The translations under genes were made by a program, and so were the position numbers. From the NCBI GenBank assembly GCA_016213825.1, contig JACQZP010000009.1, positions 1 through 64,000 of the forward strand: a stretch of DNA of 64,000 nucleotides, in the 5' to 3' direction. Origin of the DNA: Acetobacterium woodii. Lineage in GTDB: Bacteria > Bacillota > Clostridia > Eubacteriales > Eubacteriaceae. Within the stretch, counting starts at the first letter, position 1, and every line of letters begins with the position of its first letter. Positions 45,568-49,563 of this stretch are shown piece by piece. A model generated the notes under the pieces. It was not told the origin of the DNA, searched no databases, and was given only the letters and a program-made list of their open reading frames with translations.

Positions 45568-47514
45568 TTAGCTGAGCGGTTCCATCTTGTCCAGGCTCTT
45601 AAGCCATTGGGTGGCATGGGCGTCGGAGGGCATGCGCCAGTCGCCTCGAGGGGAAAAGGATACCGAGCCAACCTTTGGTCCGTCGGGCAGACAGTTGCGT
45701 TTAAACTGCTGGCTGAAGAAACGGTGGTAAAAGCTTTTCAGCCATTTAAAGATCACCGGTTTTTCATAGACGCCGTCAAAGGCCTTGCAGGCCAGAAAAT
45801 ATACTTTTTCCGGTGAAAAACCGTGACGCACCATCTGATACATAAAGAAATCGTGGAGTTCGTAAGGACCGACGGTTTCTTCTGTTTTTTGGGCAATTTT
45901 GCCATCGGCGTCCGGGGGCAGCAGTTCTGGGGAAACCGGCGTGTCCAGAACATCATAGAGAATTTTCTGGATGTCTTCCTCTGGGGAATGATCGGCTACC
46001 CACTCTACCAGATAACGAATCAGCGTTTTGGGGACACTGCAATTAACACTGTACATTGACATATGGTCACCATTATAGGTAGCCCAGCCCAGCGCCAATT
46101 CGGAAAGATCCCCGGTCCCAATGACAATGCCACCCAGTTTGTTGGAAAGATCCATCAGGATCTGGGTCCGTTCCCGGGCCTGGGAGTTTTCATAGGTGAC
46201 GTTGTGGAGATCCATGGGGTGATCAATGTCTTTAAAGTGGGCGGTACAGGCTTCGACGATGGAAATCTCATGAAAGGTCGCACCCAGACCATTAATCAGG
46301 GCAACGGCATTATCATAGGTGCGGTCGGTGGTGCCAAAGCCGGGCATGGTGACGGCGTGGATTTTCTCCCGGGGGATATTAAAGCGGTCGCAGACACTGA
46401 CGCAAACCAGCAGTGCCATAGTGGAGTCAAGGCCCCCGGAGATTCCCACGACCATCGGCGCATTGCCGATATGAGCAAGGCGGCTGGCCAAACCAATGGT
46501 TTGAATATTAAAAATTTCTTCACACCGTTCACTACGGCGATTGGGATCTCCCGGCACAAAGGGCTGGGGATTGACATCGCGGTCAAAATCATTGGTTCCC
46601 GGAGTTTCAAACTTAATTATTTGGTATGATCGGTCTTTCAGTAGATGGACGGAATCTCCGAAACCATGCTGCATTTGCCGATCATGATTAAGCGATTCCA
46701 CATCAATATCAGTGATCAGCAGTTCATTACCCAGGTTAAACTTGGGCAGTTCCTTAAGCAGTATTCCTCGTTCGCAGATGATCGCATTGCCGCCAAACAC
46801 CAGATCACTGGTGGATTCGCCAAATCCCGCCGAGGCGTATAAGTAAGCCGCATTGCAGCGACCGGATTGGGATCGGATCAGTTCTCGGCGGTAATCGCTT
46901 TTCCCCACCACCTCGTTACTGGCTGAGGGGTTTAAGATCACCGTTGCTCCGGCCAGGGCATGAAAACTGCCTGGTGAAATGGGCACCCATAAATCTTCGC
47001 AGATCTCGATGCCCACCACCAATTCTTCCCGATGGACATGCTGAAAAAGCAAATCGGTTCCGATTGGAACGGTTTGCGAACAAATTGTAATTTCGGTTTG
47101 ATTCAGTGATTTTGATGAAGCAAACCAACGCTTTTCATAGAATTCCTGATGGTTGGGAATATAGGTTTTGGGGACGATCCCCAGTATTTTTCCGTCATTG
47201 ACTGCTACTGCACAATTATATAAGCTCCCACTGATTGCCAGCGGAAGCCCCACCACCATCAGCATTTTTTTACCATCCGACCATTGACACAAACTATCCA
47301 AAGCTTTTACGGCATTTTTCTGAAGCTCCCGTTGAAAAAACAGATCACCGCAGGTATACCCGGTGATTCCCAATTCAGGAAACAATAACACCTCGACGCC
47401 CTGATCCCATGCGTTGCCTGCCAAAGCGATGGTTTCACCGATGTTATATTGACAATCAGCCAGTTTGAGTTTAGGAACAGCGCAGGCCGTTCGAAAAAAT
47501 CCATATTTATGCAT
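45568..47514 (-). CDS. nadE: Glutamine-dependent NAD+ synthetase
   Basis: A 648-residue two-domain enzyme. The N-terminal nitrilase-type glutaminase has the Glu in LFPELGITGYTCGD, Lys in VPKTYIPN and Cys in VGIEICEDLWVP. The C-terminal synthetase has VVGISGGLDSTMAL and the YMVRHGFSPEK-type end. It makes NAD+ from deamido-NAD+ with ammonia from glutamine. Length fits the long bacterial form. Confidence 0.96.
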   Translation of the reverse strand: MHKYGFFRTACAVPKLKLADCQYNIGETIALAGNAWDQGVEVLLFPELGITGYTCGDLFFQRELQKNAVKALDSLCQWSDGKKMLMVVGLPLAISGSLYNCAVAVNDGKILGIVPKTYIPNHQEFYEKRWFASSKSLNQTEITICSQTVPIGTDLLFQHVHREELVVGIEICEDLWVPISPGSFHALAGATVILNPSASNEVVGKSDYRRELIRSQSGRCNAAYLYASAGFGESTSDLVFGGNAIICERGILLKELPKFNLGNELLITDIDVESLNHDRQMQHGFGDSVHLLKDRSYQIIKFETPGTNDFDRDVNPQPFVPGDPNRRSERCEEIFNIQTIGLASRLAHIGNAPMVVGISGGLDSTMALLVCVSVCDRFNIPREKIHAVTMPGFGTTDRTYDNAVALINGLGATFHEISIVEACTAHFKDIDHPMDLHNVTYENSQARERTQILMDLSNKLGGIVIGTGDLSELALGWATYNGDHMSMYSVNCSVPKTLIRYLVEWVADHSPEEDIQKILYDVLDTPVSPELLPPDADGKIAQKTEETVGPYELHDFFMYQMVRHGFSPEKVYFLACKAFDGVYEKPVIFKWLKSFYHRFFSQQFKRNCLPDGPKVGSVSFSPRGDWRMPSDAHATQWLKSLDKMEPLS

Positions 47515-47606
47515 CTATTTCACCTTACATCTTTTTATTTTTCAGTTTAATTTGATCGATGTGTTTTATTATATCCCCATTTAGGATTCATGACAATCTT
47601 ATTTTA

Positions 47607-47795
47607 TTTTCCACAGCCTGTGTTCAACCTTGATTTTCTTATACACAATTCACCTGTGTGTTGTTTTCCCATTACATTGGCGCTATTGTGGGTTTCCTTA
47701 TTCTGTTAACAGGGTTATCCACATTGTCCACAGGGAAAACCGATGTTCTCCACAGTTTTATACAAATTTTATCCACAGTTTTTAAGTTATCCACA
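47607..47795 (+). promoter_or_regulatory. DnaA-box cluster
   Basis: Three perfect TTATCCACA (47715-47723, 47769-47777, 47787-47795) and one TTATACACA (47639-47647), all on the plus strand. Near matches: TTTTCCACA (47607), TTGTCCACA (47724, directly abutting a perfect box) and TTCTCCACA (47746). The 47515-47869 gap between nadE and pyrG has no other convincing content. AT-rich DNA flanks it. No dnaA gene is near. Confidence 0.8.
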
Positions 47796-47830
47796 GTTTT
47801 CCTGTTGGTATATCTTGTGTATTTACCCAT

Positions 47831-47864
47831 AAAAAAAATCAAGATCTAGGATCTCGATTTTTTT
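47831..47864 (-). terminator. pyrG terminator
   Basis: AAAAAAATC-A-AGATC and GATCT-C-GATTTTTTT form a stem over TAG, just past the pyrG stop. Confidence 0.85.
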
Positions 47865-47869
47865 AGCGA

Positions 47870-49563
<1,694 letters not shown>

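Follow-up and report, generated by a model that had tools for sequence, protein, structure and literature searches.

The gap of 355 bp that separates nadE from pyrG in Acetobacterium woodii carries a cluster of DnaA boxes that is kept, together with its layout, in most of the family loci examined, and that is probably a control site for the timing of DNA copying rather than a second origin. We favour with moderate confidence the view that this conserved group of boxes is the counterpart of the DnaA-box clusters that Bacillus subtilis has outside oriC, and that it would act as an ordered DnaA platform withholding DnaA from oriC.

DnaA boxes in the nadE-pyrG gap

Within the window (i.e., the whole stretch of 64,000 nucleotides that was analysed), the cluster lies at 47607-47795 (Table 1), and a rescan of the sequence returned the same coordinates, between nadE and pyrG, as the original prediction. 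Five exact matches to TTWTNCACA were found (starting at 47607, 47639, 47715, 47769 and 47787) where four had been counted, while the count of three near matches stood (47724, TTGTCCACA; 47746, TTCTCCACA; 47758, TTATACAAA), and every exact and near match is on the + strand, in keeping with the single orientation described earlier. Within one mismatch of TTATCCACA, there are 7 boxes per 189 bp in the cluster versus 24 per ~63.8 kb in the window background (Poisson P ~2e-12). The oriC of the same genome, on contig C16, is bipartite, with seven boxes in the gap upstream of dnaA (within one mismatch, in ~220 bp) and a second part, in or next to the dnaA-dnaN gap, that has two perfect boxes; the density of the cluster, called origin-like in the original prediction, equals that of the part upstream of dnaA. 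Several boxes are grouped here in non-coding DNA outside oriC, as is the rule for clusters of the B. subtilis type.

Table 1. Features of the nadE-pyrG region and the two further DnaA-box clusters outside oriC (positions in the window unless a locus or contig is named).
Feature	Position	Strand	Remark
nadE, glutamine-type NAD+ synthase	45568..47514	-	NF002730
Predicted sigma-70-type nadE promoter (TTGTCA, 17 bp, TATAAT)	47568..47596	-	Consensus match; conserved in the genus
DnaA box E, TTTTCCACA	47607..47615	+	10 bp upstream of the -35 of nadE; no variation among the 17 aligned loci of the genus
DnaA box, TTATACACA	47639..47647	+	One of the least conserved; several relatives have TTATTAACA
DnaA box A, TTATCCACA	47715..47723	+	Conserved core begins here
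DnaA box B, TTGTCCACA	47724..47732	+	Head to tail with A, no gap
DnaA box C, TTCTCCACA	47746..47754	+	B+22 bp
Weak DnaA-box-like site, TTATACAAA	47758..47766	+	Two mismatches to TTATCCACA
DnaA box, TTATCCACA	47769..47777	+	C+23 in the genus, variable
DnaA box D, TTATCCACA	47787..47795	+	C+41; C+51 to 53 in most other family genera
Flank motif, TATATCTTGTGT	47809..47820	+	Single copy in own genome; much of the family has it about as far from D
Likely pyrG terminator (15-bp stem, 3-nt loop, U-run)	47831..47864	-	Folding z -4.4; conserved in the genus
pyrG, CTP synthase	47870..49474	-	Constant neighbour of the cluster
Second off-origin cluster	L005:4993-5203 = C21:134992-135202	mixed orientation	Upstream of a TrmN/HemK-like methyltransferase gene
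Third off-origin cluster	L006:5478-5629 = C26:135477-135628		Upstream of a cytosolic 5'-nucleotidase gene; observed in the genus only

Note that the hairpin of the likely pyrG terminator was overlooked by a simple terminator scan, which found none, and was revealed as strong by folding. Elsewhere in the window, positions 1-351 contain the first part of a 16S rRNA gene that the window edge interrupts. In one relative (L110, from G023), ~305 bp of extra repeat-bearing sequence lie between nadE and the cluster, compared to L109, L111 and L112.

Conservation and layout of the boxes

Among 17 aligned loci of the genus (L107 and L108 were misaligned and left out), 47 of the 63 positions in boxes were invariant versus 40 of the 186 in spacers (Fisher P ~7e-14, a value to be taken as strong rather than exact because the sequences are related); judging from this alignment, the boxes are under strong selection. 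On the family scale, 36 loci were examined, from 40 genomes of which 38 had a NadE match and two (G019 and G037, with fragmentary matches) were left out. At least four boxes (within one mismatch) occurred in the 700 bp upstream of nadE in 34 of these 36 loci, with strand counts of 220 versus 19, so the boxes are indeed retained in relatives, as the original prediction had proposed to check; pyrG adjoins the cluster in all 34, and the two genomes without a cluster (L272 and L273) both belong to genus g2. The cluster was absent both from the 12 loci upstream of nadE in other families of the order and from 41 checked loci of other groups, each of which had at most two such boxes (for the latter set, 42 of 80 loci were taken, one of them being the Acetobacterium locus L010; L016 was listed twice and L017 had only 337 bp upstream).

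The core boxes follow a fixed layout, in which B starts at +9 from A, C at +22 from B and D at +41 from C (Acetobacterium, g9), the C-D distance being 51-53 bp in genera g3, g4, g5 and g7. With at most five mismatches in total, the A-B-C-D layout was present in 32 of the 36 family loci versus none of 530 shuffled versions of these loci (dinucleotides preserved), and it was absent from all 12 nadE-upstream loci of other families of the order. L107 and L270 fail at this threshold, and by eye a 1-bp shift or a lost B would make them fit. The E-A distance takes values of 89-90, 96, 99 and 108 bp, and of 117-120 bp in the sister families. From genus to genus, the C-D distance varies by 10-12 bp. 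The steps in C-D and E-A distances are roughly one helical turn each but no clean multiples of 10.5, and helical phasing is suggestive only.

Across 391 genomes of the class, 13 carry the A-B-C pattern and none the reversed one. Four of the 13 matches are pyrG-nadE loci within the family, and in four genomes from two other families of the order (G040, G042, G044 and G060) the pattern lies between pyrG and rho; G040 and G042 further share box D, at C+51, and one more box, at A-117/118. In G059, the pattern is close to V-type ATPase genes and to an open frame with a Rho N-terminal domain. pyrG is the constant neighbour, and nadE and rho alternate downstream. The last four matches are elsewhere, namely near an azlC-like gene (G027), by eye inside an mnmE-like frame (G199) and, as a similar row of boxes in a different clostridial family (G128 and G335; L299 and L300, ~ position 1498), upstream of a ribosome-hibernation factor gene (identified by eye in G335). 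DnaA may therefore favour the A-B-C spacing in general.

Other clusters and chromosomal position

In the three genomes for which all perfect boxes were listed (G000, G002 and G010), the only places with at least two perfect TTATCCACA in 300 bp were oriC and three loci, namely the nadE-pyrG cluster and the two further clusters of Table 1. The methyltransferase cluster, which lies near DnaI-like and DnaD-domain genes, is kept (at least four boxes) in 27 of the 30 family loci examined. The 5'-nucleotidase cluster, counted from two boxes upward, is kept in 15 of 16 loci of the genus; at the remaining locus, the upstream sequence was only 162 bp long.

Expressed as a fraction of the genome, the distance from dnaA to the nadE cluster was 0.154 in G010, 0.170 in G002, 0.152 in G018, 0.154 in G013, 0.142 in G023, 0.128 in G024, 0.148 in G034 and 0.065 in the outlier G031 (for which the largest contig, 2.33 Mb, was used as genome length). 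Over these eight genomes of 2.0 to 4.4 Mb, the cluster lies on either side of dnaA and, at 0.065-0.170, is closer to the origin than to the terminus, yet hundreds of kb off. Its mean distance is 0.139 (sd 0.032), and that of the methyltransferase cluster's gene is 0.118 (sd 0.067). In a control with sampled genes, 0 of 89 gene pairs had a difference as small as that of nadE. This result is biased, as the genomes were sampled on grids that do not match and small differences were under-sampled; moreover, the 89 pairs represent far fewer linked blocks, and we do not regard the comparison as a test. A conserved distance from oriC is suggestive only.

Proposed role of the cluster

The original prediction had left the choice between a DnaA-titration or regulatory locus, as datA or the Bacillus clusters, and an unusual origin. 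The first half is the best-supported, with the boxes kept in relatives, whereas the origin half is not supported (see below). According to our model, DnaA would form an ordered oligomer on boxes A, B, C and D, which stand head to tail, with E upstream of them. The cluster is some one seventh of the chromosome away from oriC, so it would be copied after initiation and its capacity to hold DnaA would then double; the doubled capacity would lower free DnaA at oriC and help to delay the next round. Such holding of DnaA is what has been proposed for the B. subtilis clusters, and was formerly proposed for datA. At the genome's own oriC, a tandem pair much like the abutting boxes A and B adjoins the DnaA-trio, and the cluster could therefore be seen as a decoy orisome, a tandem pair without trio: as no trio follows A-B, a DnaA oligomer formed there could not open DNA. 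The fixed head-to-tail layout suggests such a defined oligomer rather than a loose sink; it exceeds the needs of a passive sink, which speaks against mere withholding of DnaA and for a complex of a more specific kind. The two family genomes without a cluster, the fixed place of box E in Acetobacterium and the one outlier in the distance to the origin likewise weigh against the model. The promoter nearby (that of nadE here and of rho in the sister families) is likely to be affected too, as a secondary role.

Promoter control is the main rival, possible although on the doubtful side, and may coexist with the holding of DnaA. DnaA would here repress or activate the downstream gene (nadE, or rho in the sister families) and couple NAD or termination capacity to the replication state. 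DnaA is described as a transcription factor (PMC4447404), box E keeps a fixed place beside the conserved nadE promoter of Acetobacterium, i.e., a DnaA box lies near a predicted promoter as expected for DnaA-regulated promoters, and by eye the boxes of genus g3 are beside promoter-like sequence. However, the core A-D lies ~120-200 bp upstream of the -35, the layout remains constant while the downstream gene swaps between nadE and rho, and nadE has no upstream cluster in any of the 12 loci of the order outside the family or the 41 from other groups. Since the layout occurs between pyrG and rho in the sister families, the cluster is not simply a nadE promoter element, and nadE-specific regulation as the main role is weakened.

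A bolder view, which we consider unlikely, would make the locus a Gram-positive counterpart of datA/DARS, in which the A-B-C-D layout and the flank motif build one specific DnaA oligomer that alters the nucleotide or oligomer state of DnaA and not just its free amount, its chromosomal place setting the timing in the cell cycle.

The flank motif also bears on another chromosome-organising role, e.g., DnaA-bound anchoring or segregation, perhaps with a reader of TATATCTTGTGT, a role that appears quite improbable. The motif is specific to the cluster locus: its TATATCTTGTG part occurs once in the own genome, and ATCTTGTGTCAA in other genera is confined to the cluster locus among the family genomes where it was found. 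In all 8 genomes with a known position, whichever replichore carries the cluster, the boxes are moreover directed toward oriC, as an organising role would have it, but this direction is explained by pyrG and nadE being co-directional with replication, and no partner protein was found. In L116 and L270, ATCTTGTGTCAA is present as direct copies on either side of the cluster. The motif was also considered as an NrdR box (consensus ACACWATATATWGTGT), and this was dropped in view of the one copy in the genome, the restriction of ATCTTGTGTCAA to the locus and the lack of a visible paired box. NrdR is reported to require a paired box (PMC12051234).

A second or ectopic replication origin is very improbable, although the box density matches that of the oriC part upstream of dnaA. 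As had been noted from the window, no dnaA is near: the window's contig has none, and the dnaA of the genome (3.94 Mb, 37 contigs) is on C16. Nor is there a strand switch near the cluster, also as first described, since nadE and pyrG are both on the - strand and the surrounding GC skew is negative; the skew switch that marks an oriC was thus not seen at the cluster. In the complete genome of a close relative (G010; twenty 20-kb samples), the skew is below zero between 0.46 and 2.31 Mb and above zero from 2.50 Mb; dnaA lies at 2.37 Mb and the nadE-pyrG cluster at 1.74 Mb, so that the GC-skew check suggested at the outset places the flip at dnaA, ~630 kb from the cluster. In addition, the own dnaA-dnaN gap contains an abutting TTATTAACA-TTATCCACA pair, then a DnaA-trio run and an AT-rich stretch, the latter two being typical of clostridial origins, whereas a search of the nadE-pyrG gap returned no DnaA-trio, and no replication gene adjoins the cluster. 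With neither skew switch nor trio, we rejected the origin reading.

Finally, chance or drift, i.e., locally TTATCCACA-like sequence without function, has nothing more than the A+T-rich intergenic setting in its favour and is refuted, with a negligible probability left, because the cluster is conserved across genera and families (34 of 36 family loci), to which the contrast between boxes and spacers, the box density and the fixed layout are added.

Comparison with known DnaA-box loci

As a B. subtilis cluster does, the proposed DnaA-holding locus forms an intergenic array of many boxes in a Gram-positive organism, away from oriC and with few such arrays per genome. In the cited sections on B. 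subtilis, deletion of six clusters leads to early initiation, and the clusters restrain initiation by holding DnaA (PMC5295017, PMC13220808); their position relative to oriC matters, the effect being weaker when moved to the terminus (PMC5010248). In contrast, none of the 20 strongest DnaA regions given in Table 1 of PMC4447404 adjoins pyrG, rho or nadE. The layout of the Acetobacterium-type cluster is constant across genera.

Escherichia coli datA, too, is a DnaA-box locus in non-coding DNA; its relative distance from oriC is roughly constant, and it is described as a negative regulator. However, its box layout appears to differ from that of the pyrG-nadE cluster, and datA is reported to require IHF, a protein reported absent from B. 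subtilis, and to promote DnaA-ATP hydrolysis. Closely spaced box pairs are preferred by E. coli DnaA in vivo according to the cited part of PMC11317965, with a spacing of 2-3 bp in these double boxes versus zero gap for the abutting A and B. Clostridial oriC2 shares the abutting tandem boxes, as in the own dnaA-dnaN gap, but is described with a DnaA-trio and an unwinding region (PMC7561715), and the cluster has no trio.

The locus, the depth of its conservation and its fixed box layout are new, no prior description of the pyrG-nadE cluster having been found in the open-licence literature. According to the section cited from a 2026 review (PMC13220808), it is unknown if B. subtilis has regulators of the balance between DnaA-ADP and DnaA-ATP; an off-origin DnaA locus with a spacing grammar held across genera and families offers a precise and mutable target for this question, and transformation protocols are reported for the acetogens A. 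woodii and E. callanderi (PMC12345282). Altogether, beside the known systems, this cluster indicates which features selection keeps in an off-origin cluster, namely the order, direction and spacing of the boxes and not merely their number.
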